Shown: positions 1,186-46,539 of the stretch, piece by piece
Layout of the letters: every line of letters begins with the position of its first letter
Position numbering within the stretch: the first letter of the stretch is position 1
Assembly: GCA_001692895.1 (NCBI GenBank)
Contig: KV748179.1
Coordinates: forward strand, 4,424,668-4,488,667
DNA: 64,000 bases
Source of the DNA: Cenococcum geophilum 1.58
Lineage: Eukaryota > Ascomycota > Dothideomycetes > Gloniales > Gloniaceae
Direction of reading: 5' to 3'
Program-made: the position numbers and the translations under genes
Notes under the pieces: model-generated
What the model was told of the DNA's origin: nothing
The model's database searches: none
The model's input: only the letters and a program-made list of their open reading frames with translations

Positions 1186-1202
1186 AATCCCAAGGATCGA
1201 AA

Positions 1203-2410: not shown

Positions 2411-2496
2411 AGGGGGTATACTTGGCAGAGGCACGTGTAGAGGCTATCGGGAATATAGCGGGGACCCGATAGTAATGTGTCGCGCGCACACAAAGG

Positions 2497-2722: not shown

Positions 2723-2758
2723 TGTGGTATTTTTGTTGCAGCCGAAAATTAGGGTTTA

Positions 2759-9225: not shown

Positions 9226-9235
9226 TTATAAAAGG

Positions 9236-9655
9236 TGTTACGGACCTTATATTGGCAGTAGTAGCACTACTAAGAAGAGACATAAACGGACTAGTAGTGG
9301 AGGTATAGGAGGTGCTAGAACTAGTCAAACTATAGGATAAGGGGTAACTAAGTTACATAATAAGTTATAGGAGGAGATTTGTTAATCTACTAGATCTATA
9401 GGATCTGCTTACGTACCTTACATACTTAGTATTTCTTAGGCGCAGTATTGTGTATTTAAAGGACTACAGTCCCTACCTAGATAGTTCTCTTCTTTATAGT
9501 GAATCTTAGAATATAATTAGAGTTAATTTATTAGGTAACTACTCCACCAGTTATATTTATGTTGTTAACTATTCTATACCTATATACCTAGCCTATTAAT
9601 AAGTCCACTATAGTATTTCCTATAAGGCTTTATTATATAGTTACTACCACAGTTA
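9236..9655 (+). repeat. 5' LTR of Gypsy A (right edge approximate)
   Basis: The start TGTTACGG is shared with the LTR of F at 56456, and the two sequences align for about 400 bp. The 3' edge is uncertain because no second LTR of this family is in the window. The five bases before it are AAAGG, the candidate target duplication. Confidence 0.6.
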
Positions 9656-10611
9656 TAGTAAAAGAAGTTAAATAATATGCTATTAAAAGCACTAGTTATG
9701 TCGTTAACGGCAGTAACTACCTTAGGATTAGGTAACGATACTAGTATAGTAGATACTAACTCTTAGCTAGTTACGGTTAGACAATTATAAGTAATAATTA
9801 ATTAATTAATGGGTAATAATAGGATACTTAAGGAAAGGATTAATGGAATTGGAGTAGCGAAGGTTAAGCTACTATCTATTAAGCGATTCTTAGGTAAGAG
9901 ATCTAAACTTAAGGAATTTCTTATGTAGATACATTTTAAGGTTATATAAGAAGGAGCGAAGCTAGCAATACCTATGGATTAAATAGCCTACGTGGGGTTA
10001 TTCCTGTTAGGAAGGGTACTTAAGTAGTTTAAACCTTACCTTATAGAGGTATAGGAAAGCGGCATATTAACTACTAACTAAGAAGTATAATATATGTTTA
10101 CTAGTTAAAACGGGTTTGTAAAACGCCTAATGTAAATATTTAGAGACCTAAAAGTAACTACTATAGTAAAACAAAAGCTTTAAAACTTAATATAACGGAC
10201 CTTAGTAATTAAGTATATAATATAGTTTTAGATATTAGCTATATAAGTTAAATGGAATAATAAGGCGCTTATGGTATAGTATAAATAGGGACTTAAAGTA
10301 AAAGTCTAGGACGTAATTATCCTAATGGAAGATACGGATACTCTTAGGGAATTAATTAATTAAGCAATTAAGATCAATAATAGGATTTACTAAAGAGAGC
10401 AGACTAAAAAGGGTTAGGATAGAGTTCTACAGTTATATAAAACGTAGAGTACGCAATAATAAAGTTAAAATTAAAAATTATAATATAGCGTAGAGCTAAT
10501 AGACCTAAGTAGTATTAAAGAAAATAAGAAATAAAATAGGAAACTATGGAAACTTAGAGGATAAGGATTAAGTAATTAAAGGTTTAAGAAATAAAGGCTA
10601 AACTAGGGATC
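9236..10611 (+). mobile_element. Ty3/Gypsy element A, left part (5' LTR and gag)
   Basis: It begins TGTTACGG at 9236 and is colinear with Gypsy F (56456 onward) through the LTR and most of gag, which opens near 9676 (56917 in F). It is interrupted at 10611 by the 35.7-kb composite element B and resumes at 46285. It is a broken fossil with many breaks, AT-rich by RIP-like change. The 3' LTR has not been found in the window, so LTR divergence cannot be used for age. Confidence 0.85.
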
Positions 10612-10826
10612 TGTAAGGGATATTATTGCAAACACCTTAGGTTGCCCTTAGGACAACCCCTAGACGCCCCTTAGATAGTCGCCGGTTACGTACTAGAGGT
10701 ATATACCCGTAGTATATAGTCTCTACAATCCTAGAGGCCTTACCTTCTTAAGGATTTGTCTCTCTTACCAATCTATTCTATTCTAATCGTGTCCTTATAG
10801 CCCCCTATCTACAAAGTCCCCTTATA
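10612..10826 (+). repeat. 5' LTR of Gypsy B (215 bp)
   Basis: It begins TGTAAGGGATATTATTGC and ends CCCCTTATA. It matches 46072-46284 along its length, with differences that are mostly C/T or G/A plus a 2-bp length difference. Confidence 0.92.
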
Positions 10827-13800
10827 TTTAAATCCTTCCTACTCTTTTTTAGAAGGGTAGTTGGCTTTAAGGACCAGATTATTAATTTATATCTTTTATT
10901 TATAACTACTATTCTCCCTTAAAATCTTATAATAACCTAAATAGAAACTCCACGGATACCTTATAGAAAGCCGTCACGTAAAGGTAAAAAGGTCCCTCTA
11001 ATAGCAAGAAATTGCGATAATATAACCCTCTAGATAAGATGGCTGAATAAGCCCTAATACCTGGATGCTCTAGGAGCTTAAAGACTCTTATATACCTATA
11101 GTTACCGCTAAGGAAAACGCAGACACCCTCTATAACGGTTATAACGCTACTAAAAAGTAGCCAGAACCCCTTTAGCCCTACCTAAGCTAATTAGAAGATT
11201 AAACGCTAGAGGTAACTCTAAGATCTTCCCCTAAGCTAGAAATGCTAGAGAAATATATTAATATATTTAACTAGGGAACTAACCAGAATCCTTCCGGAAG
11301 ACCATCGGCCTATAATTAGTATAGTGGTGGTATATAGACTACTTATAAGCTAAGCGGGCCTACCCCTTTAGGTAATCTAAACTAACTACTAATTTAAGAC
11401 TTAAGCCTTATAGGGAAATCTATACCAGCTATTAGTACTAATACTATCTCTATAGCCGGAGCTTCCCTAAGGCTAAGGTTGGAAAGTTAAGAGCCCCAAA
11501 CTAATGTTCTTTAAGGTGGATATTAGGAAGCTGCTATAAGGCTCTTAGAAGCTATATAGGAAGGAGCTACTAATAAATAGATTAGAAACCTTTAGGGGTA
11601 AGTTTAGATCTAGTAGAGCTTAATCTAGGCTAGATAAAATATTTTATAACCTAGCTAAGGCTAAGGGCTTTTTAGGAGCTACCTAGTACCTACCTAAGGT
11701 ATAGAAGACTTAGAGAGTTATTTATACTATAAATAGAAAAAGGATATAGACCGACTGGCTAAGGCCTTTAGTAGTTTAGAACTTCGCCATAAACCCAACG
11801 CCCAGTAGTTAAATAATTAGGTTTATAAGGTAGACAACTTCTTTAAAATGCTAATAATATAAGATAATACTAAAGAGCGTATATACTGGATTATTAGCAA
11901 GATTAAAAACCGATTGCTAAACTAGATTATACTTAATTAGCTTAATAAAGAGCAAATTACTATATAGCTACAGCTGTAAACCTTCCTAAAGAAATGGACT
12001 TAAGATCCGTATATTATATAATATAATAATATAAAGTTATTCTAGAATAGGATATAGCTTAACCGCTATAACTTCCGCTAGTTTATAAACTTTATAGAAA
12101 TTTATACTTAATAAATAGATCTAGAGCCCTTTAAAATAAGGACGGTAGTATCTATAAAAAGGAGAAGATTAGGTTTATCTAGGCTAGAATTAAACTAGTA
12201 ATTTATAATAAAATAAAGCGTGTAGGAGCCCTATTACGGATTACTATATATACGGATTTTAAACGAGCGGTCCTAAACGCTAAAAATATAGTAAGGAACT
12301 AGACCTCTTCTGGTAGGAAGCTAGGGGGTTACTAAAAGCGTAGGTACTTTAATAGTAATATAGGGTAGACCTAACCTTTAAAGAAGCCGTTCTTAAAGAG
12401 AACTTTAAAAGGGTTAAAGTTAGGGGCCTTAAATAACGGAAAAGACTCCTAAGGCTAACTTAATACCTATCCAGCACCTTTATGGGAATACTTTAAGAAG
12501 TTAAGAGAAAACTTTAGAGGTAGATTTTATTGGAAAAATAAATAGGGCGATAACTATACTAATAATCTAAAAAAAAAGCCTTAGTTACGGACCTCTTTTG
12601 GCTATAACTAGGGCAGGATGTAAGAGGAGAGGCTCTCCGTGTTGCTGTTAGGCTAGAAATAACACTCCCTATAGGTAAGATATAATAGTTCTAAGCACTA
12701 TATAATAGTGGCGCTAAAATTAATCTTATATAATATAATTTGGTAAAAGAGTATAAACTTGTCCTATTATAAAGGTGGCAAAAACCTATTATAGGCTTTC
12801 TAAATAAGCATTGGATTAAGCTATATAGTACCTATAAGCTTATAGTGTTAGTAGCTAATATATATAACCATACTAAGGTGGTCGGCCTGTAACCCTTTTA
12901 GGCGGCTAACTTTATAGGTTATAACTTTATTTTTAAATACCCTTAGCTTATAGAAGTAGATCCTAAAATATATTTTAAGATAGAAGCCTTTAAATAGTAG
13001 AATAATAAAGATTTAGAAGGGTGTATATTACTAATAAGCCTAGAGGATATTTTAGAGAATATAGCCCTAGGTAAAATAGTATACGCTTTATACCTAAAGG
13101 AGTATTAAATCTAACCCCTGTTTAATGGTAAGATAGGTATAAAGCCTAGTATAGGTAATAACCCCTCTATAATGGAGACCCTAGAGGGAACTATTAGATA
13201 GGTTATCCCATGCGCTGTTGATAAAGGCGTCCAAATAGACGAGCCAACCAAAAGCTTCAAATCAAAGGAGTCTTGGCAAAATTAAGTCGTAATTTTGAAC
13301 AATCAATGAGGCTCCAAATCAGCATAATAAATCTCAAATTTGCTATATTATCGTCTTAATTGCGATCGGATTAAGGCGAGGNGTTCCTGCTAGCAAGGTC
13401 CTTCTTTACAGAGCGGTATATTGCATTAATTCTACACTCGAGACATTTGATTGATGTTTTGGTGTTCGTGCATGGGCCACATCTATTGGACGCCTCAACA
13501 GCGCATAGGATAAAGATATTATAGGAAGGCGGCGATCTTAAGGATCTTATAAGATACTTTAACCGTTATAGGTTACTCTGGCTTAAGCAATATACAGAAA
13601 GTATACTATGGCATCTTAAGCACTACGTTAAGGATTTCCCTATCTTTTATTAGCTACCGTATAAAACGGTATAATATATAGTGGTAACTATATATAAGCA
13701 ACTATTATAGCATATAACACTACCCGTAAGTATTTTAAGGGAGCTCTAAAACCTACCTAATAATAACGCGGAGGATAAACGCGACTCTAATTTATTAAAT

Positions 13801-14307
13801 ATTCTAGTAGGCCTAAGGGACTTATTAAGGGTATTTTTAGGCAGGAGAGCTAAAGTCCTACCGCAGAACTTGGAGTATAATTATATAATTAATCTAGAAG
13901 AAGGTAAATAACTGCTAAACCTTTCTATCTATAACCTTTTGCGTAAAGAGCTTAAGATCCTACGGGAGTACCTTAATAGGTTACTAGAAAAGGGGTAAAT
14001 CCAGCCTAGTAAGTCGCCGGTAGGTGTACTGATTTTCTTTATTTTAAAAAATTTAAAACCAGATAGAACTATAAAGCTATACGTAAACTATTGTGGTCTT
14101 AATAAGATTATAATTAAGAACCGTTACCCACTACTACTAGTTAGTAAAATGCTGGATTAACTATTTAGGGTAAAGATCTTTATAAAGCTAGATTTATATA
14201 ACGCCTATTATAGGCTCCGTATTAAAGAAGGGGATAAATAAAAGACCGCTTTTAAGACCTAATACGGCCACTTTAAGTATCTAGTAATGCCTTTTAGGCT
14301 AGCTAAT
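10827..14307 (+). mobile_element. Gypsy B internal part 1 (gag, protease, RT start)
   Basis: This is the AT-rich fossil coding region between the 5' LTR and the insertion of element C. The protease motif SGAKINLI lies near 12710. The 5' half of reverse transcriptase is recognisable from about 13840 up to the C insertion point. A 305-bp MITE lies at 13206-13510 between protease and RT. The gag portion is only inferred from position. Confidence 0.8.
13206..13510 (+). mobile_element. 305-bp MITE with TA target duplication
   Basis: The inverted ends are TCCCATGCGCTGTTGA (left) and, reverse-complemented, TCCTATGCGCTGTTGA (right); similarity continues inward through GGCGTCCAA with a 4-bp gap. TA flanks it at 13204-13205 and 13511-13512, which suggests a Tc1/mariner-related non-autonomous element. 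Unlike the surrounding Gypsy sequence it is not AT-enriched. One ambiguous base lies at 13382. There is no coding sequence. Confidence 0.85.
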
Positions 14308-14500
14308 TGTTACGGAACGAGGGCAATGGCTATAAAGCGTATATATTCGAGGAGTCTATAAGACGTTACGCGATCGATTGTAAGGGTCGAGGGCGTAAGG
14401 AGGTGATATACCTACGCGTAGCTGACATAAGCTGTACGCGAGGTGTACGCGAGAGCACGGGGCTCTCCTATGGAGGCCCCTGCGGTGGGGTTCCGTAACA
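14308..14500 (-). repeat. LTR of Gypsy C, left (3' LTR in coding sense)
   Basis: It begins TGTTACGGAAC and ends GTTCCGTAACA, so the LTR ends are themselves inverted repeats of 11 bp. It pairs with 26623-26815. A 63-codon open frame inside it is only LTR sequence and is also open in the other copy. Confidence 0.93.
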
Positions 14501-14503
14501 CTA

Positions 14504-14513
14504 CCCCCCCTCC
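14504..14513 (-). other. Polypurine tract of Gypsy C
   Basis: On the minus strand GGAGGGGGGG lies just before the 3' LTR, where plus-strand priming would occur. It sets the orientation of element C. Confidence 0.7.
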
Positions 14514-14640
14514 TATAAAGGCGGAGCTCCGGCGACGCTGTGGTTACTATATATATATAAAAAAGACACTTAAGGTATAGAAAAGAAGAAAGGGGGGTAT
14601 TACTAAAGGTTTAAAACAACGTTATATAATAAGGCTTAGC

Positions 14641-14700
14641 ATTTAAGAATCCAACTAATTAGACAACTTTAACCGCCAGTTAAAGTTCCTGGATATCTTA
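14641..14700 (-). repeat. Shared palindromic 3' module, copy in Gypsy C
   Basis: Read on the minus strand (C's coding sense), AACTTTAAC and GTTAAAGTT arms flank a 5-nt centre. Upstream comes TAAGATATC and downstream CTAATTAGTTGGATT. The same ~55-bp block occurs in Copia G (37279-37333) and Gypsy E (43719-43775). Here it lies about 140 bp upstream of the 3' LTR. Confidence 0.8.
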
Positions 14701-16924
14701 ATAATATTCTAGTTACGTAATCGCACTTTACCGCAATTTAACGGTAATTTGCCCTTATATAGCAATATATAATAGTTTAACTCTATAAGGGCTCCTATAG
14801 AGGATTAGGTATAAAATCTCTACTTAGGCTTAGTTTTTATAGGTTCGCGTAGTAAAAGTTGCTAATTAGATCCTTTATATTTTTAAAATCTTTCTATAGT
14901 TACCATTCTGGCTAATCTATATCGAATCCTGTGTATATAGCTCTATAATAGAGCCATCGTCCTCTACCTTTGCTAAAGTATTTAAAGTTAATAATTTATT
15001 TAACAGTCCACTCCTTATAGTTCTCATCTTCGTTCTTATCTTAGATTAGTACTAATAGGGGTTTAGGCTATATCTGCCCTAGTAAGAGGTTAGGCTAATA
15101 GAGGTATAGTAGCTATAGGTAAAATATAGGCCATATCCCACGGGTAGCTAGAGTAGGTAGGAGTTCTAGCTTATATACGGCTCCCCTATTAATAACTTAT
15201 TTAATTAGATAGGGGCCAAGGTTCTTATAATTAAGTGACTTTATAGGCCTTTATATAGAGATATTGCGTATATCTAGCTATACCTAGTCGCTAACACGTA
15301 TCTCCGGTGGTGGCGTTTTACAGCAGTTAATAAACTAGGCCTAATTTGCTTAAGCCTAGGCCATTTCTCCCTTATAGTAGTTAAGTAGATTTTTTATATA
15401 GTCTGTATACTAGTCGGCAAGTAGCATCTTAAGGCGTTTTCTATATAGCAGTATTTTATTAATAGGTTCTAGTGGCTCTATGCCGGATTAGGGGTAATAA
15501 CCCTTATTTACGAAGAACGGGGTAAGTCCTATAGTAGTTAAGACGTAGTTATTTACTGCAAATTTACTTAGTGGGAGGTAATCTACCTAGTTATCTTAAC
15601 TATAGGCAACTACCTATTATAGGTACGCTTTTATACTGGCATTAGCATTTTCCGGTTGCCCAGCAGTTTTATAGTAAAAGGATATAGACATCTTAACGGA
15701 GATGCTAAGGCGTTAGTAGATTCGTCTCCATATATCGGAGTTAAATTATATACCTCGGTCAGACGTAATTAAGTTAGGTAACCTATATAGTTAGTAAACT
15801 TCGTAAAAAAAGGTGTTAGTAACGTTACTAATGGCTACGCCTTCGGTTAGGACGTAGTGGCGTTTTTTTATAAGTTAGCATATTATTATAAGGATATTCT
15901 TATAGGTACGGCCGTGTCGTTTATAGGGTAGTAGGTTAATAACGAAATCTATGGCGATATCTGCCTATTATCGTATAGGTACTAGTAAAGGGTGCAGTAG
16001 TCCTTAATACTTTATATTAAAGGCCTTAGCGCGCTTATAACCGTAGTAGGCGCCTATAAAGTATTTAACTAAGTCTATTATTTTTGGCCAGAAGTAGTAT
16101 TGGCTAAGAAGCTTGTAGGTTCCTCCTCTACCTAGGTAGCCGCTTAATTAGAGGTTATAGGCTATTTAGATTAGTTGCCGTTATAGATTTTCTAAGTTAG
16201 GGATAAATAGGCGACCTCTATAATAGAGCCTATTCTCTTTTACTTTTAAAGCTGCTATATTAATCTGGCCTAAGCTTTAGAGGTTAGTAGGTAGCGTATA
16301 AGCGTTAGCGGTCTTTGCGGTAATAAGTTAATATAGTAATAGGTTAACAGAGGTGTTATATACCGTAGTAATAAGCTCGTTAATTTTAGGAGGTAACTCT
16401 AGTTCTGTAGTATAAAGCTAAGGTATAGTTGGCTTTATTATAGGTAGTATACCTAGGGCTAAATTTTATGCTTTTAGGATTGTCTGTTATTAGAACTAAT
16501 TATAAAAGTTATTTTTAAACTAAGGAAGGTCTTACGAGCGGCGTATTAGGCTATTAGGTTTAGTACCTTATACTCTTAGTCTATATGCAATTTTAAAGTT
16601 AAAACTAGAGAGGAACTCATTTTAACGTGCTTGGCGTTAGTTTAGCTACTTTATAGTTATAAAGTACTTAAGGTTGCGATGGTCCGTAAGGACTTTAGTT
16701 AGCTAATTAGGCTCTACTAAGAAGAGTTCTAGTTAGAATTCTTTAAACGCTTATATAATTATAAGGAGTTCTTTATTATAGATCTTATAGTTATACTCTT
16801 ATAGTATAAACTTAGATGAGTAAAATGCGACTAGGTAAAGGAGACCGTTATTACCTATCTAAAAGAGGACGCCTGCGTTAATATAGTCTAAGGAGTTGGT
16901 TTTAAGATAAAGTTGTCGTCCTAG

Positions 16925-17160
16925 TGTGGTGGTGAACGCGGTCCGTCTTAGATAGGAAGTCACAATGCTATCTATCTATCGGTCGGTCGGTTAGTCGGTC
17001 GGTCGTTAGTCGTAATCAATCAGTAGGAAAGCAGTCAGTAAAAAGAAAGGAAAGAATGTATTCCGGTAAGTCGTGATTAAGAAAAGGAGAGAAGCCGAAG
17101 GCTTAATATATACAGGAAAATGCTAAGGCACTAAGTAGTAGCCCATTTTACCCCACCACA
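16925..17160 (+). mobile_element. Solo LTR (236 bp) with CTAG target duplication
   Basis: The ends are TGTGGTGG...CCACCACA, in TG/CA form with an 8-bp inverted repeat. CTAG is duplicated at 16921-16924 and 17161-17164. It interrupts the RNase H region of Gypsy C. A GGTCG-rich simple repeat lies at about 16979-17010. It is more GC-rich than its host element, so it is either recent or too short for RIP. With no coding part it is best read as a solo LTR; a small non-autonomous LTR element is possible. Confidence 0.8.
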
Positions 17161-18053
17161 CTAGTATAAAGTGAGCTAGGATAGGTGCTTTAGTAAAGGC
17201 ATTTTTAAGGTCTTAGAACGCCTTCTCGTATTTAGGCGTCTAGGTAAAGTATAGGTACGTTTTTCTTCCTTTTATAAAAAGGCCCTTCGTTTACATTATT
17301 GTTATAAGTAGTGCAACTACACCTAAGAAGTTGTATATAAATTTCCGGTAGAAGTTAGCGAAATTAAGGAAGGCTTATACGTCCTTAATGCAGTTAGGGG
17401 CTTGCTATTTAGTAATTATATATACCTTCTCGGGGTCTATACGGACACCCTTAGTAGTAATAATTAGTCTAAGGTATTTTACTTCTATAACTAAGAATTT
17501 ATATTTCTTTAAATTAATATAAAGTCCTACGTCCCTAAGGCGCTATAGGACCTTTTAAACGTGTTTAGTATATTTAAAAGGGTCATCGCTATAAATAAGT
17601 ATATTGTCTAGGTACGCAGAGCTGAAGTTATTAAGGTAGTTCTATAAGGCGTTATTAATATAGCTTTAAAAGGTGCCTAGGCCGTTATATACGCTAAAGG
17701 GTATAATAGTATATTTAAATTGGCCGAAGCGTAATACAAATACGGTTTTCTATTTATTACCTTCCTATATTCGGAGATAGTTAAAGGCGGCGATAATATT
17801 AAGCTTAGTATAGATTTTGGCTTAGCTAAGCCGCTTAAGGGTCTCCTATATAAGCGGTACTAGGTATTAGTTTTTAATTATAATAGCGTTAAGTCTTTTA
17901 TAGTTAANNTAAAATTANATACCTCCTTTTAGNTTNTTAGTAAGAANNATAGGGGCNGCTNCTAGTAATATACTAGGACAAATAAACCCTTTATTAAGGT
18001 GCTCGTTAATATACTTTCTTATAACTAGAAGTTTGTCTTTTAATATTAGGTAG

Positions 18054-18423
18054 TGTTATAGGACACCCCCATAACACCTTACACACGTCCACCTATTTCC
18101 ACCAACTTAGCAATTAGAGACTAACCGCGAAATGGCAATCTAACAGCAATCTAATAGCAATCTAACGGCAATCTACGGCATTCTGCTATATTCTGCCAAG
18201 TTCTACTAAATTCTGCCAAGTTCTGCCAGGACCATAACCTAAACCCTATTCTGCCTATATACGTATTGACTAAGCAACTAAGTTAACAATATATGCCCTT
18301 TCTTCCCGTTTTCCTACCTTCTTTCCTTATATAACGTCTTAACTTTATTACGCAGTTTATATATATAGCTTAATAATACCTACTTCGCTATATATTATTA
18401 CCGCTTATGCTTACTCCGTGACA
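18054..18423 (+). repeat. 5' LTR of Gypsy D (370 bp)
   Basis: It begins TGTTATAGGACACCCCC and ends CTCCGTGACA. It pairs with 23597-23966; differences are mainly transitions. Confidence 0.93.
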
Positions 18424-21400
18424 CTACGTTACGTTAAAAACTTATACTACCCTCCGAAAATACAGAATGACCCTAAAGCCCCCATAACGGCTAACGCTAT
18501 TATAGCCGCACTCTAAGAATAATTAGTAGGTATATAGAAGTCCTTTACGGACGCCCTTATATAGCACTAAGCCACTTTAACTTAATAGCAAGCCGAATAA
18601 AAAGCACGATAATAATAATTAATTAAAGCACTTTAAGAAGAAGTCCGCATCCTTAAGATGCTTATATTAAGGCCCTAAGACTAAATGCTATTTCTAGAGA
18701 TAAATACGCGGAACGTAAGCCCCAAATCAGTAGTAGTTACTTACCCTATAGAGCTAACTACCGCACTAAAACAATCTAAGAAACTACTAGACTCCCTAGT
18801 ATTCACTAGTAAATAATAAGAGCTTTAGTTATTTTTAAGCTAGCTTAAGAATAAGCTAACCAGTAATACTAATTACTACCTAACCGAAGCTAACCGACTC
18901 TATTACGCCCTAAGTTAACTAGGAGGAGATATAGCTAACCTTATTAAACCTCTTTAACCAAACTTAGTATAAAGCCTAGTTATACTTCTTAAAGCTACAT
19001 ACGGTAACCTAAACCGCTAAGCTACCGTTTAAAGAAAGATAAACTAAATAACTTAAGAAAAGAAAAGTTTCCTAGTATACTTCTCCGAATTTAACCGCTA
19101 CGCAAAGGAAATAGGCTAAAATGACTCCGCACTAATTAACAGCCTCATTAAATCCCTAAGCCCTAAACTAAAAACCTCCCTAATAGGCGTAGACCTCCCG
19201 GAAACTCTTAACGCCTATATAAACGTTATTAACAAACGGTATAATAATATACTACGCCTTATACTAAAGCCCATTTATTAGTATAACACAATAACCCTAT
19301 AAACGCCTACTAAGTCATTATCTCAACCTAAGCACCCTAACGCCATAGATATTAACACTAGGACCCTAGAATACGCCCTATTAGGGTCCTTTAAATAAGA
19401 ACGACGTATTAAGCTAGGCCTCTGCTTTAAATATAAAAGTAGCTCCCACCTCTTAAACCACTACTCCGTCCCTATGCCCCAAAACAATTTACAAACGGCT
19501 AGTACTAGTAGCCGTTCATCATATCGATCTTCTGGTTACCGTCCCCGATCTTTATTTAGTTCCACCCCTACGTCTAATAAGCACCATTTATAAGGACGAA
19601 GCTACAGCCGACGTCCTATAAGAACCCCACCCTAATTACCTCTAAAAGGAAGGTCCTGGAGCTAAATCGCTCTCCAAAACAGCTCTACTACAGGATCTTA
19701 TTAACCGTATTTAACGTTATAAACTCCGACTCTTGGGACCATAGTATAACTATTAACTATTATCTTCGGCAGAATAGTTAATAGGCTAACGCTTAAATCC
19801 TAATTAACACAGGAGCTAGCGGTATAGGATTTATTAATAAGATCTTTATATAAGATAATAGTTTTACCCTAACCCCCCTTAACCGGCATATTAACGTATT
19901 TAGATTTAATAGTAAACGCACCATCTTAGGCCATATTACCTATATAGTAACCCTAAGACTCCGATACCTAAACCACAAAGAACTAATTAAGCTTTTCATT
20001 ACCACCCTAGGTCACTTAGTGATCCTTAAATAACCCTAGATAAAGCTATATAAGGTAACTATTAATTAAAACAACCTTAAGCTTTTATTTACCGCCTCCC
20101 GTTATAAGCAAAAGTGCTTTATAACTCGCTACTTAGACCCAGAACCAAAATCTAAAGAATCTACCAGATTCCACCAATATAAGATTTCCACCGAATTCTA
20201 CTAATATAAGAATTCCACCGACACCCACCAAGGATCCAAAAATTCCACTAAGCTCTATAAGTTATTACCAAGCACTACACCACCCTAAACTAAATAGAAA
20301 CTTAAGCTTAGTACATAAAACTACTAAAAGAACTAGTATCCTATAATAAAAAGAATACTTAAAGAACCCGAACCCAAATCTAACACTAACTTCGTACCTA
20401 ATACTAAACCCAAACCCAAATAAGAAACTACGGACGAGCCAAACAAGCTTAGTACCCTAAATATCCGTATAATTAGAGCTATTCCATTAGCGCAACTTGC
20501 TAAGAAACCTAAACATACGATCTTTGCTATCACTATAGCTGATATTAAGAAGGCCTTAGCACCGAAGAAGTACAATAATCCTGCTACAAAGGTACTAGTA
20601 GAGTACCATAACCGCCTAGAGGTATTCTTATAGAAGGAAGCCGATAAGCTACTAGAATACCGATCGTACGACCATAAGATTATACTTAAAGAAGGAAAGC
20701 AGCCTGGATTTAGACCCTTATATAGGATATTCTAAAACGAACTCTAAGTACTATAAAAGTATTTAGATAAGAACCTAAGCAAAGGATTTATTAGAGCAAG
20801 CTCATCGCCTATAGCCGCACCAGTGATCTTCGTTAAGAAACCCAGCGGCGGTCTGCGCTTCTATATAGACTACCAAGCTCTTAACGCCGTTACTATTAAG
20901 AACTGATATCCAATCCCGTTAATATAGGAGACACTAAACCGACTAAGTAAGGCTTGTTACTACACGAAGCTTAATATCATCTCTACATTTAACCGTCTCC
21001 GTATTACAAAAGGGGATAAATAGCTTACTACATTTTGTACCTAATATAGACTATTTAAGTACTTAGTAACACCCTTTAGCCTTATAAATACCCCAAGCTC
21101 GTTTTAACATTATATAAACAATACCCTATACCCCTACCTAGATATCTTCTATACTGTTTATATCGACGACATCCTAATATATAGTAATAACCTAACCAAA
21201 TATCAGAAACACGTTAACCTTATCCTATAAGCCCTATACGGAGCTGGTTTACAATTAGATATAGATAAATACGAGTTTTATAAAACGGAAGACCTATACC
21301 TTAGACTTCTTATTTCTATAAACGGTATACAAATAGACCTAAAGAAAGTTAAAGCAATTATAAACTGGCAAGAACCTAAGAACGTTAAGGACGTAAGAGC

Positions 21401-34800: not shown

Positions 34801-37278
34801 TCTACCTAGGACCCCCTAATTAAATCGTCTATAACGCAGAAAAGAACTTTTTATTTACGGAGTTTTAATAATAAATAAAGGTAATGGTAATTAAGGTTAA
34901 GGAAGTCCCTATTAAGGTATATAATAGTATTAGAAAAGTAGAATAATATTACGCGCTATTACGCCGCGTATATAAGATTATCTTTTTAGAACTAGAGGAC
35001 ACTAGTAAAGAACTTACCTTACAAATAGCTGTTAAAGCCATTAACGATTCCGCTGGCCCAGATAGACTTATACCTATATTACTAGTCTTTAGCGCCTACC
35101 CTTAAATAACTAATAATTCTCCACTATCTCCCTCTATTATATAATAAGCTAAGGCTATTTACAAGGCAACGAAGGAGGTATAATGTCTCTACGCCACACG
35201 CCAGGTTAACAACGTACTAGGAATAAGAAATGGCCCAAATACCTTAACTACGCTTGACCTGCCACTTTAGTTTAAGGTACGCGTATGGCGTAAAAAGGGA
35301 GGATAGTTAGGCCTATATTAACTTATTGCAATTAATAGTTAAACTTATACTATTTAGATGCCTTATAGACCCACTTAATTCCGTTTAACTATTATTAAGC
35401 CTTATTATAAAGATAATAGTTCCGAGCCTTTACAGGATACTATAAAAGATACCCTAGAGGAGAGCTATGATTAACGTGCTCTAGAAGGCGACCACGATCC
35501 TAATATAATTATAGTAGATACGCCGCAACTACGACGCGGTAGAGGTCGCCCGAAAGGATCACAAAATCGCTAACATCTTGTTAATTTTAAAGAGCAATTT
35601 GTTGCCGCTATTAAGAATGGAGTTAAGCTATTAATAGCCTTTATAACAGCTAAGGAGAAGACTGACTTTAAACTCGCAAAATAGCTCTAAAAGGAAGGTC
35701 GTATTATAACTTTAGGAGCTCCTTTCTAAGTATCTAATAAGTAGGAGATCAATGGTCTTATTATAAGAGGGGTCTTTAAATTTAAGAAGTATAACCCTAC
35801 TAAGTTCAATAAAGTTCGCATCTTTAAGTTAAGAATAGTTAACGAGATTAAAGGTAAAGCTACTAACGCCCTATTTAAGAAATTAAGGCTTATTATCTAA
35901 GGCTACAATAACAATAGTAAGGAGGTAATTCTTATATAATCTCCTATAATTTAACGAGCCAGTTAGCGAGTTATTATTGCACTAGCTCCCTCCCTAATAA
36001 AGAATAGAATGGTAGTCTATCTGCGAGATATTACTTAGGCCTATACCTAATTAGAGACGCACCTTTAGCGCTTAATATTAGCATACCTTCTAGAGTAAAT
36101 TCGCTACTAATACTCCGAAGATACAATTATGGTTGTGCTTAAGCCATTATATGGAATTGCAGAGGTAGGAACTTACTAGTAGGCTACCTACAGCAAGCAC
36201 TATAAAGAGAAGCTTTTGATAACTACTTCTATATTCGATCTATGCTTCCTTATTATAACTACGGGAACTCTATTTAGAATTGTTAGTATATAAACCAACG
36301 ATATAATTATCTTAGGAGATAACCGATTCTTAGCTCTTAAAGAAGATAAGCTAGTAAAGGCAAATCTTATGGCAAAGCTAAAGGAAAAGCTTAATTTAAT
36401 AATACTATTACTCTTTAATAGATGTGTCCTTTCCCTAAACGAGGATTCCATTACTTTATGCCAGAAGGGTTAAGGTAAGAAGATTAACGTTATTAACGTT
36501 AATTCTCTAAAATAAGAATACGTAGAGTAACGCGCTTATAGAGCTTATATTGCTTCTATCTATTAACCTAAGGCTTTATTTAATCTCTCTGTTGCCACTT
36601 AATACTAGGAATTAACTAAGGATAACGTCCTTACCCTAAATAAGCGTCTCTCTTAGTAAATAAACTATCTTAACCGGGGACTACTCTACGTGCCTGTTAA
36701 TCTTCCCACTACTAAGCTTTTTGTATTTGTTAATAAATCGTTTATAAATAATAAAGATTTTAGCTCCTAGCTAGGATATAAGATTATTATTACAAACAAA
36801 TCTACCAAAGAAAAAGACTTTATAATCCACGGTAACCTTATTTATTAAAGCTTAATTAAGAGTAAGCGCGTTACTTAAAGCGTTCTGGCGTTAGAGATAT
36901 ATAGAATAGTTAGCGGAGTTAATATGGTAATTATAATTAAAACTACCCTAAAGATAATTATAGATCGACTTAAACTTCCTATTATCCCTATAATTGTGTG
37001 TACTAACTTATACTCCCTTTATAAGTGTTTAGTTAAGCTTAGTACTATAAAGGAGAAGCGCCTTATAATTAACATTATAGCACTTCATTAATCCTACGAA
37101 CGTTAAAAACTCTTTAAGATTTAATAGATTAATGGCTAAGATAACCTAGTAGATATAATAACGAAGGCGAACCTAAATAAGGTACTAGAGACGTTTATTA
37201 ATACGAATACTCTACGTATATAAGTTAAAGGTTAGGTGAAAAGGGAGTCCTTAGAAATGTCTTAGTTATATAAGGCCT

Positions 37279-37333
37279 TAAGATATCTAGGAACTTCAAC
37301 CGGCGGTTAAAGTTATCTAATTAGTTAGATTCT
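37279..37333 (+). repeat. Shared palindromic 3' module, copy in Copia G
   Basis: It carries the same block as in C and E: TAAGATATC, AACTTCAAC/GTTAAAGTT arms, then CTAATTAGTTAGATT. It lies about 280 bp upstream of the 3' LTR. A second ~45-bp palindrome-ended block (GCCAAT...ATTGGC, containing TAGGATTTTC) at about 37358-37402 recurs inverted in E near 43831-43875. Confidence 0.8.
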
Positions 37334-37611
37334 GTAGACCCTAACTTAAACTAGCCAATTAGGATTTTCCATCCCTGGGATAAAAAATCGCTATTGGCTC
37401 GCTTATAGCTAGCGCCTTGGCGGCCCTAACGGCCCTAACACGATATCTACCTATAACTCCTTAGTAAGAAAGCACCGCGTGCTAAGAGGTAAATTTTGGG
37501 ACAGCGAGACTTATACTGCAATGGTAATAGTAAGTAAGGAGGGTTTATATTTATTATGATAGTTAAGTAGTATTTATATATAGATGGCAACCATAAAAGA
37601 AGAGTTGCTAG

Positions 37612-37819
37612 TGTTAGGAATAAGGCAAGTTGCCGCTATGTACGGCAAACTGCCGTCACGTAATGGCAAGTTGCTATCACGTATCGCCGCGGTACTAGCG
37701 TGGCGAGGAGCCTTAAGTTCCTCGCCCTCCCTTATTCTAATTAATAAGCTTTATTAACCAACATCACTATAACCCTACTCGAGTAGTCGTTATTGGTGAG
37801 TTACCCTATGTTTTTAACA
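37612..37819 (+). repeat. 3' LTR of Copia G (208 bp)
   Basis: It pairs with 31667-31874 at the same length. It is followed by AATAA, the target duplication. Confidence 0.93.
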
Positions 37820-39678
37820 AATAAATAAAGAATATAAGCTATAAATAGAGAATATTTTAGATATAGAAAAAAGGGATATATTTAAAGGGATTGCCAAACT
37901 TACCCTTTTAAAAAGGTCTACTGTAGCTCCTCTTAGTCCTTAAGTTATACTTATTCTATAAATTATACTTAGTTACTATAAAGTATTTTACCTTTAGTTA
38001 ATTTAGAAAACAAATCGTCCTAGGGCTAAATTATGCCTTAGAATAAGAAATAGAAGAGTATAAGTATCTAGGCTCTTTTAGCGCTAATATATAATATAAC
38101 TCCCTTAATATACTTAGTAAAATTTAAATACTTAGAAAATGGAAGGAAGTATAAATCCTTATAGATAGCGGAGCTACTAGTATAGGCTTTATTAATACAA
38201 ACTACGCGAAAACTTAATGCTTAAATTTAAAGAAACTTAATAAGCCCTTAATATATAGTAAACTAACGCACTACGCTCTTATAAAAATGCGGATAGGCGA
38301 ATACCTTAAATATATTTCTCTATTTATAATACCCTTAAAGCATTATAAAGTAATACTTAGATATAGATAGCTAAAATAACACAAACCTTTAATTAGCTGG
38401 GTTAAAAAAATACTAAAATTCCGTATAACCTACTGCCGAAGTTATTATTTAAAATACTACTTACCTTATAAATATATACACAACTATTTAAATTTAATAT
38501 AATATAAATTACCCTTACTATAAACCCCAAACTAATATAATAAAGTTATAACTGCTAATTGCGGTAAAGAATGTAAAGATAATATATTAAAACCCCTTAA
38601 AATTTATATAGTATAAGCCGCACCCTTTTATTTATTAGTAAGAAGACGAAACTATAAGATCTTTACTATAATACTAAAAGATATTAAAAAGGCGTTAAAA
38701 CTAAAGTAATATATTAACCCCTAACCTCTTATACCTAAAGAATATTATAATCTAATTAATATATTTAAAAAATAATTCGTAGACTAACTACCCCCGTATT
38801 AAGATAAGCATAATTTTAAGATAGAACTTAAACCTAGTATAACGCTAAAGTTTGGCCCGTTATATGGTATATCGTAAGAAGAGCTGCTTATAATATAATA
38901 ATACCTTAAAAAGCACTTAGAGAAAGGATTTATTTGCCCTAGTTAATTACTATTCGCCTTACTTATACTATTTATTAAGAAACCTAGAGAAGGCTTAAGG
39001 TTCTGTGTTAATTATTAAGCCCTAAATATAATTACGATTTAAAACCAATATCTAATTCCTCTACTTTAAGAAACGCTTAACTACTTAGTAAAAGTATAAT
39101 ACTTTACGAAGCTTAATATAGTTACTACCTTTAATTAAATCCGTGTTTATAAAGGAGATAAAAAGTATATAGCTTTTTATATATAATAGGGACTTTTTAA
39201 ATACCTAGTAATGCTATTTAGTGTAAAGAACGGTCCTAGTATATTTTAGTAATATATTAATAATACACTTCGCAAATTCCTTAATATATTTATTACCGCG
39301 TATATTAATAATATCTTAATTTATTTATCTTTACTTTCTAAGTATTAGAAGTACATTTAAATGGTTTTTAAACGCCTATAAGACGCGGGCTTATAATGCA
39401 ATATTAAGAAATACAAGTTCTATATATCTAAAGTTACGTACTTAGGCCTAATTATATCCCGTAACGGAATTAAAATGGACCCTAAGAAAATTGCTGTAAT
39501 TATAAACTAGGAAAGTCCTAATAGTATATAAAACATCTAAGGATTTCTAGAATTTATACAATTTTATTATTAATTTATTAATTACTTCTTAAAAATTATT
39601 TAGCTATTAGTAAACTTAATAAAGAAGAATATAAGATTTAAATAGACTACTAAATATAAATAAGCTTTTAATAACGTA

Positions 39679-41518
39679 TTTTACGGGCGAGCTAGTTAAA
39701 CGGGCGAGCTGGTTAGTTTGCTAAGACTATACTAAATATAACGAACTATGTAACAAACTATTCCACCTTACTATAATCTACCTCTGATTCCTTATCGCTA
39801 CTAGATTCTACAGTAGATTCTTTAATATTTTGGCACGTTTAAACGTTGTGCCTAGTCCCACCGCAGTTCCCACAGCGCCTTTAAGTTGGCTCGACTCCAT
39901 CTGCCCCAGCCTTACCCCAACTCTTCTTACTACTAGAGGCAGCGGTAGGAGAGTTCTCAGCAACTAGCTGCAATCCAGCCTTATAGGTAAGGACTCCTCC
40001 TTGCTAGATACGCTTTCTTTTACGCTATTTCCGTTAGATTGTGGCCTTATTAGCTGCTTTAAGCTCGGTAATTTAATCGCGCTATAATACTATCTAATGA
40101 GCCATTAAAAGGGTGCCCTTAATAAGCTGATTAAACCCTTCCTTTAATAAAGATGGTGAGCTACCTAACTTATTGCTAATTAGCTCTATTTACGACCCAA
40201 ATTTAAGGTGGTTACTAGGGGTTTTTAACTGCCATAGGGTGTCTTCGGTAGTGGGTGGTGTAGGCGTACGCAATCGAATGTTAAGCTTTGATATTACCTT
40301 ATCTGGGTTAAAAGAAACCAGGCTAGCGCCTTAAAAGCTTCCTTAGATATTACTCTTAGTAATAGAGGCGTTAAACGCGTCCTAAAAGGCTAGTAAGAAC
40401 TCTATTTTAGTAATATGGTTGATCCGGTTACGTATTAGCTTCTTAACTTGGCGCCCGTACGCTATCTTTAAAGGTAAGAAATAACCTATATCTAGTGGCT
40501 GCAGGATATACAATAAATGTGCTAGCATATATAAAGTAATTATTTTATTCTCCTTATAATATTCGGTAAATTATAGCGAGTTATGGCTCTTGTGGCTATT
40601 AATAATTAGTAGACGATACGCGCTAATAGTACGCTCCTTTGTATGCCTATTAAAGTACTTTAACCACTTAAAACTAAGCTTATTAGTTATCTAGCCGTTA
40701 TTAGAGACCCTAAATGCCTATTAAGGTGGTATATTAGCTTCCTGGTACCACATAGAGAGGTGGTTTTTGCCTTTGTAGATAATAAAGGGTAGAAGCACGT
40801 AGCCTAACGCGCTAATACCCTAGATTACCGTAACCCACTTACGATTGCCTGGTTGTATAGCCTTTAGTTAATGCCGTCTTTTAGAGCCTATAATGACTTT
40901 TTGCTAGGTTATTATACCCATCTAGAAGCTAGATTCGTTAAAGTTGTATAAGTCTCTGTTCTGGATACTGTACTTGGCTTTTATATTACGTATAAGGTTA
41001 AACTAGGCTTGTATAATTATTAGTTCTTCCTGTTTATAACGCTAGTAGTCTAGCTTCCAACTATATCTTGTTTTAAGCCCTGGGGTACGCTTAATAAAGC
41101 TATATGGCCAGTTTATGCCCACTGGGTTTATCCACCGCTCGGCTAATAGTTTATTAGCTATCTCTTAAATAGCATTAAGCGGAGGGGCAAATCCTCTTAA
41201 ATTTAGCTTAAGTATATACCGTTTTATCGCCTCCTCTTTGGTTACTGTAAGCTTTATTAAATTTGGCTTAGTATTGCGTCGTGGGGTAGTTCCGGCGCGT
41301 CGCGTCTGTAGGCTTAAGAGGGGGACGTTAAAAGTGCGTGTAGCGCGTTGAATGCCGTAAATCTGCTTTGTATCGAGAGCCTGGATAGCAAGCTGTATTC
41401 GAGCTTCTTTAGAAGTCGATTGTAAATTCGTAGGTGGAGACATTATAGTGTCAAATATTTTGATGCGTGGTCTTGGCAAACTGACCAGCTCGCCCGTTTA
41501 ACTAGCTCGCCCGTGAAA
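39679..41518 (-). mobile_element. Fot1/pogo-type DNA transposon H (1,840 bp)
   Basis: It is flanked by TA (39677-39678 and 41519-41520) within the palindromic target AACGTACGTT. Terminal inverted repeats of about 50 bp differ only by C/T-type changes. Each begins TTT(T/C) and then holds a tandem pair, ACGGGCGAGCTAGTTAA and ACGGGCGAGCTGGTTAG, probably repeated transposase-binding sites. The single transposase gene runs on the minus strand. The element interrupts the RNase H region of Gypsy E. Confidence 0.9.
39795..41479 (-). pseudogene. Fot1/pogo-type transposase, inactivated
   Basis: The N-terminal 104 codons (41165-41479) are open and carry the psq-like and CENP-B-like helix-turn-helix start (EARIQLAIQALDTKQIYGIQ, then KEEAIKRYILKLNLRGFAPP). 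The DDE_1 core follows: NFNESSF near 40930-40950, where NFDE is usual; QPGNRKWVTVI near 40830; and INSHKSHNS near 40590, where LDGHESH is usual. Both expected Asp residues read Asn, so catalysis should be lost. Near the C-terminus a CGNCGGTRHN...C zinc-knuckle (about 39835-39880) and an acidic tail match Fot1-like transposases of filamentous ascomycetes. Several in-frame TAG/TAA stops are present. All changes fit RIP-type C-to-T or G-to-A. Confidence 0.85.
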
Positions 41519-43718
41519 TACGTTAACCTAAAATATTATTTTATAACTACTCTAATTCTTACCTACTTTAATCTAGACCTTAAATATATTATTAAAACAG
41601 ACTTATCTAATTATATACTAGGAGGAGTATTATCGCAATATAATAAAAACGGCGAGCTATGCCTAATAGCCTTTCTCTCCCAGAAACTTACCCATATTAA
41701 ATTAAACTATAAGATATATAATAAGGAACTACTTATAATTATTAGATGCTTTAAATAATAGCGTTTAGAACTTAAAGAATTGTTATTTCTAATACGCGTA
41801 TTAACGGACTATAAAAACCTATAGTACTTTATAACTATAAAGCAATTAATATAGCGCTAAATTTATTAGGCCAAATACTTTTTATAATTTAACTTTAAGA
41901 TTACGTACTAACCTAGTAAACTTAATTAGAAGCCTAACTTATTAATAAGATAATTATAAGACTTATTTATAAACGCCTCTAATAAACGGATTATAAATTA
42001 ATTACGAATTCTACTACCCCCTAAATACTTTAAGAAATTACACCCTATATTTTTAAATGCGGAGCTTAATAGGAATAAATTAGAGATTAATAAGTGGGAT
42101 ATAAAAATTAATAAATTAATAGAGTATAAATATAAGAACGACTTCTGGATAGTAAATATAATAAAAGTTATTTAAATAGGGAAACGGTAATATAAGGATA
42201 TTATACTCGCTAAATGCGAAATCTATAATAATTAGTTATACTATTAATAGAAGATAGTAATCCCGAATTCTAAACCCTTACAATTTAAGATACTTAAATT
42301 TATATATAATTCCCCTATAGTAGGGCACCCTAGCTATATAAAGACCTATAAGATTATCTAATAAGTATATTACTAGCCTATAATATATAACTATATACGA
42401 AAATACGTTTAAGTATATAGAATATATATGCGTAGGAAGACCTCTTATGTAAAGAAGTAAGGAGTACTTTAACCATTACCAATTTTAATGTAAAGATGGC
42501 GAGATATCTTAATTAACTTTATAATTAACCTACCTAACAGGAATAGGTTTACGAATGTTATAGTAGTTATTAACTATCTTATAAAAATGCGATATATAAT
42601 TTCTATAGACTTAATTAATATAATATTGGTAGCTAAATGTTTTATTAAGTACATCTTTAAGCTATATAGACTTTTTAATTTAATAATATCTAACTATAGA
42701 AGCTAGTTTATTTTAGACTTCTAGTAAGCCTTATATAAACAATTAAGTATATAAATACGACTTTTAACTATATTTTATCCGGAGATAGATAGTTAAACTA
42801 AAATTATAAACGCGATTATAGAATAATACCTATAAATATACTACTCCTACCTATAAGATAACTAGGAAAAGTGGCTACCTTTAGCTAAGTTTACTGCAAA
42901 TAATATAAGGAACAAATTAATAGGTATAACGCCGTTTTATATAACTTACGGATAAGACTCTTAACTTAGATTTAAACTATAACCTAAAATTAATATAACA
43001 GGACCTATAATTAAGAGGATTTAACTAATTAACGTATATAACTTTGCTAATTAAATAAAGCAGTTAACGGAACTATTATAAAGTAAATTAGCGTACACTT
43101 AAATAGTATAAGAATAGCATATAAATAAAGAATAAACTCCTATATAGGACTTTAAGGAAGGTAATATAGTTTACCTAAATATACGAAACCTAAAGACTTA
43201 ACGACCCTTAAAGAAACTAGACTAGAAGTTTATAGGCCTATACTAAATTAAGAAGAAACTAAGCCCATATACTTATAAGCTTAAACTATTAACTAAAATA
43301 AAAATATATTTAACGTTTTATATAAACTTACTATAACCCTTAAAAAGTAAACCTATAACTTATAAAGTGCTACTACTACCTTCTATAATTATTAATAACG
43401 GTAATAGTTCTTACTTTATTAACTTAATTAATAATATATAATAAAAAATATAATCTAAATAATTTAAACTTCTTATTAAGTGGGAAGGATATAAAATATA
43501 AACTTAGGAAACTTATAACTAGATTAAGACCGACGCGCCTTTCCTAGTAAAAGAATTTTATGAAGACTATCCTTTATGGCCTGCTTTAGCTAAATAGATA
43601 TAATATAAAGGTAAATAACTGCTACCTAATACGAATATATAAAATACAATAGTAGGAAGTTTAAAATTAAAAAGAACTTAAAATACGTTATAACATTTAT
43701 AATATAATTATATAATAC

Positions 43719-43775
43719 GTAAGATATTAAGGAACTTTAACCGGCAGTTAAAGTTATTTAATTAGTTAGATTTGC
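43719..43775 (+). repeat. Shared palindromic 3' module, copy in Gypsy E
   Basis: TAAGATATT, AACTTTAAC and GTTAAAGTT arms, then TTAATTAGTTAGATT, in the coding sense of E and about 220 bp upstream of its 3' LTR. The copy differs from those in C and G almost only by transitions. Confidence 0.8.
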
Positions 43776-43995
43776 CTTACTAAGACCTACTATAAAGATA
43801 TTAGTTTAGCTTACTACCTTAACTAAGCTAATAGCGATTTTTTATACTAGGTATAGAAAATCCTAATTAGCCTACTTAACGATTAGAACCGGTAAAACCC
43901 TATACTACTACCTAACGCGAAAACACGACATATAATAAGTTATAAGTCTTAACTAAAATTAAATTATTTAGACCTTTAGCTAAAAGGGGGGGTAC

Positions 43996-44300
43996 TAAAA
44001 CGGGACTAGCCCAGTTATAGTAGAAATGTCTTAGTAAAACACTTAATAGATAAATTTTAACGCTTTAACCGAATTCTACTAGCTTAATTAACTTTTACTA
44101 AAGTCTGTTAAAGACCGCGTGTGTATATACGCACGCATTAACCACTAAGCCCCTAACTATTTAATTATATAATTCTCTTGTTATTCCCTTCTCTTCTTTA
44201 CGTAATATCTTGTTCTTAGCGAGAGCTATATACCCTTAGATTTAGATAGAATTTATATTATTCCTTTAAATCTTTCCTAAAGTCTCTTTACGCCCTTATA
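43996..44300 (+). repeat. 3' LTR of Gypsy E (305 bp)
   Basis: It is preceded by a polypurine run at 43982-43992 and followed by TACGC. It is equal in length to the 5' copy and differs mainly by transitions. Confidence 0.92.
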
Positions 44301-44305
44301 TACGC

Positions 44306-46071
44306 TTAAGCCTAGAATAAATAGAGACGTTAGCTAGCTAGTATAGTCTAGAACTACTAAGACCTTACTATAGTAACTATTAGTTACCTATCCGCTAGGT
44401 ACCTAAAGGGTAACCTACCTAATACTGTATTATGTTATACTCTTTTAAAACTTAATATATATGCGTAAACTCCTTCCTATAGTAAATAGCGACCTTTTTC
44501 TTATTACCCCTATCCCGTACCCTATCCTTAGTATATTAACCTTACTCTTATATTAGATATTACTAGCTAGCTTACTAGGAATTATAGGTAGTGTAGATAG
44601 CTATAGTATAGTCTTAAATTTAACTAAGATGTTTAGCATTAGCGCTAGAATAAGACAAAGCCTGGGTAATGTAGTAGTTAAAAACATTAAAGGATTGTCG
44701 CCACTTAGGCCTAGGCTATTAAAGCCTAAAGTTAGCAATAAAAATCTATTAAGGATAGAGAAGCTTACCTTAATATAACTACCGCTCTTAGTATATATGC
44801 ATTAATTATAAGGACTAAAGGTATTAGATTTAACGCAGTACGTCTTATTATAAGCCTCTAAAATCCTATTATTAGATTTCTGGTCTTTTAAAGACGTATA
44901 AGCAAAATTATTTAGGTAGGGCTAGCACTAGTTACAAGTTAGTAGGGGTTAGGGTTCTATATATAAAGGTAAGGCTAGGATACGCTATAGAATTTACTTA
45001 AAAGAGTAGTTAGTAGGAGAATAAAGAGGTATATTAAATTAATAATAAAAAAGAAGAAAATCTTAATAATATATTAAAGATACGTCTAAATTGGACAAAG
45101 GTTAATAATAGGACGTAAGGTGTTAAGGAAAAGGATTAAGCTTAATAAGTGAAGTGTCTTTATACTTTACCATCTAATACCCTTCTAATAAATAGCCACA
45201 ACCTTACCGATATAACTCCGTTATAATAGCGCTATTTAAAAGGAAGGAAATACGTATATAAGTTATTTAACTATTACTTCCTTATAAAAACTAACTACGT
45301 AGCTAGGGGAAGGTAATTAAGACGTTAAATTAAAAACGTATATAGGTTAAATTAGACCTAAAACGATACTATAGTATTAAAGAACAACGTTATAGACGTT
45401 CTTAATAATCGTATAATAGCTATAATTGCTATCGCAAAATGTCCCTATTTACTAAGTAGTAGAGCTACGCCAAATATACAGTATAGGACTACTAGATTTA
45501 AAAGCATATGCACTAAATCTTAAGAGATAAGTCTCTTTAACTGACTAATTAATACCTTAACTATATTTAATAGCCTAAGGGTAAATGCGGGAGTAATATA
45601 TTAGTGACGTAAAGGATTATAAGAAAAGGATTATAAGAAAGAATTATAGACTATATCTTAGCAGTTAAAGACGACGGTAAGATAAGGCTCTATACGTTAA
45701 ATCCTATACTAAAAGGTTCTATAGAACTATACTAGAACACTAAATTGCCTATAATACTTATAATTAATTATAGACTGGCATAAAGGCTTAGAAGTAAAGT
45801 TGTATAAAAATCCCTATATTAGCCTAGGTAGTTACTAGCATACTTCTAGTAGGCTTTTAATAGGTCTCCTAGTAATCCTTACGTTTTTTCTCCAATTATA
45901 TTTTTTCCTTATTAAGGTTTTTTAGGAGTTTAAAGTAGGGGTTAGATAGATAAATAATATACAGCGGTATACCGACATCTCTCCAAACCCCTTCCGGGAC
46001 GAGCCCTTATAATCTCCCTACCGTAAGGTAATAGCGATCGGGGGCCGACCGTAAGAAGGGGGGGGGGGTAA
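44306..46071 (+). mobile_element. Gypsy B internal part 3 (3' region, unassigned)
   Basis: It resumes after element E and leads to a polypurine tract at 46053-46068 and the 3' LTR. No retroelement domain or host gene is recognised in about 1.77 kb. Together with 29760-30357 this makes an unusually long segment between the chromodomain and the 3' LTR. It may hold an untranslated region, an extra gene now erased, or another old insertion. Confidence 0.55.
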
Positions 46072-46284
46072 TGTAAGGGATATTATTGCGGACACCTTAG
46101 GTTGCCCTTAAGACAACCCCTAAACACCCCTTAGATAGTCGCCGGTTACGTGCTAGAGGTATATACCCATAGTATATAATCTCCACAATCCTAGAGGCCT
46201 TACCTCCTTAAAGATTCGTCTCTTACCAATCTATCCTATTTCAATCGTGTCCTTATAGCCCCCTGTCTACAAAGTCCCCTTATA
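46072..46284 (+). repeat. 3' LTR of Gypsy B (213 bp)
   Basis: It pairs with 10612-10826. A run of G residues directly upstream is the polypurine tract. After it comes GGATC, and element A's gag resumes exactly where it broke off at 10611. Confidence 0.93.
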
Positions 46285-46530
46285 GGATCTTAGTAGCAGA
46301 AGATGTTTAGGCAGACTCTATAGTAAGAAAAATAGTTTAAAAAAGGAGCTTATATAAATTACGAAAAATAAGGTTATTTTATTAAAGACTATAAAAGTAG
46401 GTAGAGTTACTATATAGTAAGAGGAACGAGACTAGTTGTTTGTATCAACTTAATAATATAGGTAAGTTATATCTAGGGGCACGAAATACGTATAGTATCG
46501 TATACTCTTTTAGATAGTGGTAACTGTCAA
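46285..46530 (+). mobile_element. Gypsy A, right part (end of gag, possible protease start)
   Basis: After the target copy GGATC the sequence continues colinearly with gag of F (57858-58015), including a zinc-knuckle-like region. A possible protease motif (LLDSG near 46508) follows. Beyond about 46530 similarity is lost and no RT of element A is found in the window. Its right edge is uncertain. Confidence 0.7.
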
Positions 46531-46539
46531 TTCTATTAA

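Follow-up and report, generated by a model that had tools for sequence, protein, structure and literature searches.

We analysed a window of 64,000 nucleotides (positions 4424668-4488667 of contig KV748179.1) from the genome assembly of the ascomycete Cenococcum geophilum 1.58, which comprises 177,193,698 bases in 162 contigs. The available part of the published genome description gives a size of 178 Mb with 81% repeats (PMC5023957). The first 8,400 nucleotides of the window have a GC content of 0.47 and a substrate index for repeat-induced point mutation (RIP) of 1.11, and beyond them the sequence is mostly AT-rich and poor in CpA/TpG. A nest of transposable elements lies in this AT-rich part. 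Its members are listed in Table 1 with their long terminal repeats (LTRs), inverted repeats and target duplications. A first-pass annotation of the same DNA had already lettered several of the elements, and the element meant by each letter was judged from the duplications that it listed.

Table 1. Elements of the nest, with positions in the window. All target duplications given are exact.
Feature	Positions	Strand	Description	Repeats	Target duplication
Tc1-like fossil	8454-9233	+	Base layer: left part only of a putative Tc1-like transposase fossil, broken by M1, then by A
M1	8581-8963	.	Small, little-mutated element in Tc1-like fossil	Inverted repeats 8580-8601/8943-8964 (22 nt)
A, left part	9234-10611	+	5' end and putative gag-like region of LTR-type element
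A, continuation after B	46290-46436	+	Stops where I begins
I	46437-51018	- (strand inferred)	LTR-type element in A, adjoining CTAGT; abrupt end at 51018
B	10612-46284	+	Ty3-type LTR retrotransposon inserted in A	LTRs 10612-10826, 46072-46284	GGATC, 10607-10611 and 46285-46289
F	13206-13513	.	Small inverted-repeat element in B, little mutated	19-nt inverted repeats
C	14308-26815	-	Ty3-type LTR retrotransposon in reverse transcriptase (RT) domain of B	LTRs 14308-14500, 26623-26815	CTAAT, 14303-14307 and 26816-26820
K	16925-17160	+	236-bp element in C, most likely a solo LTR		CTAG, 16921-16924 and 17161-17164
D	18054-23966	+	Ty3-type LTR retrotransposon in C	LTRs 18054-18423, 23597-23966	GGTAG, 18049-18053 and 23967-23971
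E	30358-44300	+	Ty3-type LTR retrotransposon in B	LTRs 30358-30662, 43996-44300	TACGC, 30353-30357 and 44301-44305
G	31667-37819	+ (strand inferred)	LTR element in E	LTRs 31667-31874, 37612-37819	AATAA, 31662-31666 and 37820-37824
H	39674-41523	-	DNA transposon at start of RNase H domain of E; DDE_1 transposase	Inverted repeats 39672-39727/41470-41525 (56 bp, TA included)	TA, 39672-39673 and 41524-41525
A2	56443-64000	+	Relative of A without B; empty-site paralogue in the same window

The first-pass annotation had described five LTR pairs and listed seven target duplications. The pairs of B, C, D, E and G were found where it had placed them, and they were all recovered again when the window was compared with itself, a check that it had proposed. 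The seven duplications (GGATC, CTAAT, GGTAG, TACGC, AATAA, TA and CTAG) are all present and exact. With the inserts removed, C, D, E and G measure 6,350, 5,913, 5,933 and 6,153 bp, respectively, in agreement with the net length of about 6 kb claimed for them. B has a net length of about 8.9 kb (8,904-8,912 bp, depending on where F is cut out). The statement that every junction carries an exact duplication holds for the seven listed insertions but not for A, of which the window has the left junction only. The annotation made no mention of I or M1, skipped F in its lettering and did not call the element flanked by CTAG a solo LTR.

Host copies without the insert (empty sites) were sought in the genome. 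The query for each site consisted of about 300 bases of host on each side (181 on the right for B in A) joined by a single copy of the target, and the best 40 of 436-3,103 first-look candidates per site were scored. Copies aligning across the join made up 40 of 40 scored for C in B, B in A, D in C, G in E and H in E. The join of E in B was crossed in 38 of 38 scored copies, the two halves of the window's own copy being set aside. Since scoring the best 40 favours unbroken copies, these counts prove that empty sites exist and not how frequent they are. For a base-level check, 10 or 15 of the best 40 loci per site were fetched. The alignments were free of gaps within 15 bases of the join in all fetched loci for C in B (10/10), E in B (10/10), B in A (15/15), D in C (10/10) and G in E (10/10). 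The join of H in E showed no gap in 10 of 10 loci after the cut in the query was shifted by one base, and in none of 10 before. K is missing from all nine C loci that span its site; ten C loci were fetched, and the tenth stops short. The fetched empty sites carry point differences, which in some loci fall inside the target itself. The agreement of the empty sites with the nest is far beyond chance.

Protein domains give independent evidence at two of these sites. B, C, D and E each carry RVT_1, RT_RNaseH and Integrase_H2C2 in that order by Pfam, which is the Ty3 order; the integrase match of C is slightly below its cut-off. The RVT_1 match of B stops at profile position 121 on the left of C and restarts at 128 on the right of C. 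The RT_RNaseH_2 match of E starts at profile position 12 immediately to the right of H, and its first 11 profile positions were not detected to the left of H. H itself gave a DDE_1 transposase match on the minus strand (E = 3.4e-24). We take H to be a pogo/Fot1-type DNA transposon, which fits its DDE_1 transposase, terminal inverted repeats and TA duplication; no CENP-B-like DNA-binding domain was matched at E 0.01 in its three minus-strand frames. C and the left LTR of D have TG...CA ends, and in some right copies G-to-A changes have turned the end into TA. The LTRs of B and E end in TATA rather than CA. Pfam searches of A and of the gag side of B gave no matches. The nucleotide similarity between G and I is 57%.

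At the base of the stack, positions 8454-8577 gave weak HTH_7 and HTH_38 matches below cut-off, and a Tc1-like relative of this layer, locus L084, gave a DDE_3 match that was likewise below cut-off. L084 matches 8963-9235 at 91% and extends past 9234. Because the left edge of A recurs in its copies, several of which start at 9234-9238, and because L084 runs through that point, A probably landed in the Tc1-like fossil. The continuation of L084, which would be the right half of the fossil, had no counterpart in the window at a threshold of E 0.001. We read the left part of A as gag-like.

On its right side, A had been drawn to about 46530 in the first-pass annotation. This end had to be moved to 46436, where A is cut by element I. 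All 40 scored copies of A cease matching the window at 46434-46436, and in 12 of 12 loci inspected (15 fetched) other sequence follows after 46436. The edge of I at 46437-46439 recurs in its own genomic copies, and I is a multi-copy element. Because I cuts A at 46436, A has no closing duplication here; none was found in the window, where the sequence past this point belongs to I. The continuation of A was not found elsewhere in the window except in A2, to which 9227-10612 aligns at 56447-57861 and 46284-46469 at 57855-58039. In A2, RT/RNase H lies between 59.4 and 61.7 kb. A second copy of the first 50 bases of I, 88% identical and in the same orientation, is present in L085; in the element copy that L034 and L085 sample, it lies at a distance of 3.2 kb. 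No closing duplication of I was found in the window. The stretch between I and A2 (51019-56440) has an unusually low CpG observed/expected ratio of 0.28, compared with 0.76-1.31 in other measured stretches.

The LTR pairs also record how the copies were mutated. Over 1,289 aligned sites, the five pairs differ by 107 transitions and one transversion. Of the 107 transitions, 75 have a CpA context (in 24 of these the neighbouring base is variable too), and CpA accounts for 113 of the 580 C dinucleotides available in the LTRs. These C-to-T changes in repeats with preference for CpA are the mutation pattern of RIP, and from them we infer the RIP machinery itself. All eight differences between the LTRs of G are C-to-T or G-to-A and lie in the right copy only; those of D are split 19 to 20 between the copies. 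The identities of the pairs are 0.925 for B, 0.907 for C, 0.895 for D, 0.911 for E and 0.962 for G, and they contradict the order of the nest in four of six ancestor-descendant pairs. The view that LTR divergence is distorted by RIP here was thus confirmed, and its use as a clock was rejected. The transversions are too few to order any insertion.

These results are almost certainly to be explained by transposons that inserted one after another in a RIP-type fungal genome, in a part of it that is AT-rich and filled with repeats; the copies were then mutated by RIP, and the nest orders copies, not families. A DNA-transposon fossil probably took in A, and A took in B and, separately, I. B received C and E, C took in D and K, and E took in G and H. 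The LTR elements integrated with target duplications of 4-5 bp and H with TA, steps that the duplications and empty sites show. The copies would then have been struck by C-to-T repeat mutation, which would have broken their frames and made nearly all of the LTR differences. The interior of K may have been lost later by recombination between its two LTRs, as its solo form suggests. Interleaved LTR pairs could also arise if dispersed repeats had been mis-assembled or shuffled as segments. The genome would invite such errors: it is AT-rich and highly repetitive, its families run to hundreds or thousands of first-look candidates, and the window contains some N. Such an origin is extremely improbable, however, because each of the seven sites is matched in the fetched loci by an uninterrupted, single-target host that is gap-free and has point differences only. 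Moreover, every insert is bounded by LTR or inverted-repeat ends, and shuffling would not produce this seven times.

Several observations weigh against the account by successive insertion and RIP, or against single steps of it. The LTR differences include one transversion, which is in E. Only 4 of the 16 transitions between the LTRs of B are at CpA, so the pattern of B is less clearly RIP than those of the other elements. G gave no Pfam domain in 12 frame pieces covering both halves of its heavily mutated sequence, and therefore G, like A, stays unclassified by domain; G does have its LTR pair and 5-bp duplication. At the base, the Tc1 identity of the fossil is a weak assignment from matches below cut-off, and the step between A and this fossil is supported by one boundary only. 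A local assembly error is conceivable at the A/I boundary and at 51018. Eleven N letters are present in the window, one in F, nine in C (17908-17961) and one at 54659.

The copy order read in the first-pass annotation, Tc1-like fossil before A before B before C before D, and B before E before G and H, is upheld, from A upwards by the duplications and the empty sites. The locus thus gives a reliable insertion order for the individual copies that it contains. The further claim, that this one locus gives the relative times of six families, did not survive comparison with other nests. If the locus gave the order of family activity, B would have been the earliest, C and E would have followed it, and D, G and H would have been the latest. 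The copy order here has that form, and it is matched elsewhere by another G in E, a D in E and a C in an A-type element. Against this, E is inserted in C at L066, C is inserted in E at L067, and at L024 an A-type element is inserted in B, the reverse of the arrangement in the window. These joins are at an exact element edge (an LTR edge for L066 and L067) on the one side seen. Because opposite nest directions occur elsewhere, one locus orders copies only, and a strict order of the families is unlikely; the nests sampled are too few to exclude a loose tendency toward it. From these nests we infer that the periods of activity of the families overlapped. The nature of K was weighed in the same way. 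K has a 12-nt inverted repeat when CTAG is counted, and 1.8 kb of sequence between one pair of K copies gave no Pfam domain, as might be expected of a small inverted-repeat DNA element. We consider this quite unlikely, as K has TG...CA ends and a 4-bp duplication, and its relatives occur in pairs. The 40 genomic matches of K (that of the window included) hold five same-strand pairs within 12 kb, where an even scatter would give 0.05. The ends of three of these five pairs were fetched, and all three pairs span 6.5-7.5 kb with outer 4-bp duplications (CTAG, ATAT and ATAT). Paired copies with 4-bp duplications outside both make K most likely a solo LTR, the remnant of a full LTR element. The duplications of the K family are 4 bp long, compared with 5 bp for B, C, D, E and G.

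Two other small elements, F and M1, add further steps to the stack. Their RIP substrate indices are 1.83 and 1.12, respectively, and they are nearly free of RIP-like depletion inside depleted hosts. Copies of B cross the site of F in 40 of 40 scored, and six small fetches show uninterrupted host. No clean target duplication was found for F, the flanks of which fit the host best without a repeated target. M1 is probably flanked by a TAA duplication, judging from the letters at its ends.

Some sequences are shared between elements. A palindrome, GGAACTTTAACYGGCRGTTAAAGTT, is present in C, G and E at 14665-14689 (minus strand), 37290-37314 and 43731-43755, respectively. It sits in about 55 conserved bases, 165-300 bases from an LTR in all three. 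With one mismatch allowed, it occurs 935 + 975 times in the genome, compared with 1 + 0 for the reversed control. The commonest listed form, with C at Y and G at R, is without CpA or TpG, so RIP could not strike it at its preferred site. A stable RNA was considered and rejected, its folding being not clearly above that of shuffles (z 0.25, -0.38 and -1.59). The palindrome is possibly a shared cis-signal. A second shared block of about 70 bases lies beside it at 37341-37412 in G and 43814-43886 in E, in opposite orientations and with 78% identity. In the gene-like left end of the window are tandem 12-bp repeats (2538-2741) and an array of 126-bp spaced repeats (3943-5643), and a fragment at 1976-2409 is 80% identical to the interior of B (12439-12866). 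No RNA families at Rfam gathering scores and no tRNAs by ARAGORN were found in the window.

The depletion of RIP targets was examined as another possible clock. The raw substrate indices are 0.32 for B, 0.35 for C and 0.46 for D, and 0.27 for E and 0.46 for G. They climb from B to C to D and from E to G, yet the index of E is lower than that of its host B, and A and B have equal values. We compared the CpA/TpG density of each copy with that of other copies of the same family, and host with insert. Of 14 nests first picked by eye, 12 had a host with stronger depletion than its insert. Three nests with clear edges were added (L026, L045 and L078), of which two agree and L045 is clearly opposed, for a total of 14 of 17. 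L070 agrees and was not counted because its edge is ambiguous; L039, L063 and L079, ambiguous or too short, were excluded. Among the direct pairs of the window, the host is more depleted in three of six. Taken together, 17 of 23 pairs have the more depleted host (one-sided sign test, P = 0.017, on pairs that share families and thus are not independent). The norms of D and G come from two other copies each plus that of the window, and with D and G left out the result is 12 of 17 (P = 0.07). It is possible, if somewhat doubtful, that family-normalised CpA/TpG depletion can serve as a relative clock in cases where LTR divergence fails, and that nests can calibrate it. We offer it as a lead only.

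In maize and other grasses, LTR retrotransposons nested in older elements give a relative chronology, and LTR divergence is commonly taken as a clock. The locus described here resembles those nests in that relative chronology comes from insertion into older elements, and differs from them in that the LTR differences are almost all RIP-like. Maize is mentioned in the available part of a study of Mycosphaerella graminicola (Zymoseptoria tritici), which reports 78 putative nested clusters, 7.5-63 kb long and each composed of 2-7 different elements (PMC4522978). Those clusters are the closest parallel: nested LTR retrotransposons with verified duplications of 4-6 bp in an ascomycete with a RIP-like mechanism. 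The deepest bracketed verified entry noted in Table 4 of that source is 49 (263 (623)) within a base element (PMC4522978), whereas the nest in Cenococcum has five successive layers and seven insertions each tied to empty paralogous sites. For crapaud, a RIP-affected LTR retrotransposon of Podospora, the authors urge care with clock-based LTR ages, and the part of that paper available is without nest-based ordering (PMC10787394). In Microbotryum, the amount of RIP-like mutation was tested against the age of regions; judging from the available sections, this was done with averages over evolutionary strata, not with pairs of host and insert (PMC10502011). A host-versus-insert test of depletion does not appear in the available parts of these three papers (PMC4522978, PMC10787394 and PMC10502011). 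The nest is thus a well-supported but ordinary case, since such clusters with verified duplications are already published (PMC4522978). As a clean, checkable stack with known insertion order, it can be used to test methods of dating in genomes affected by RIP.

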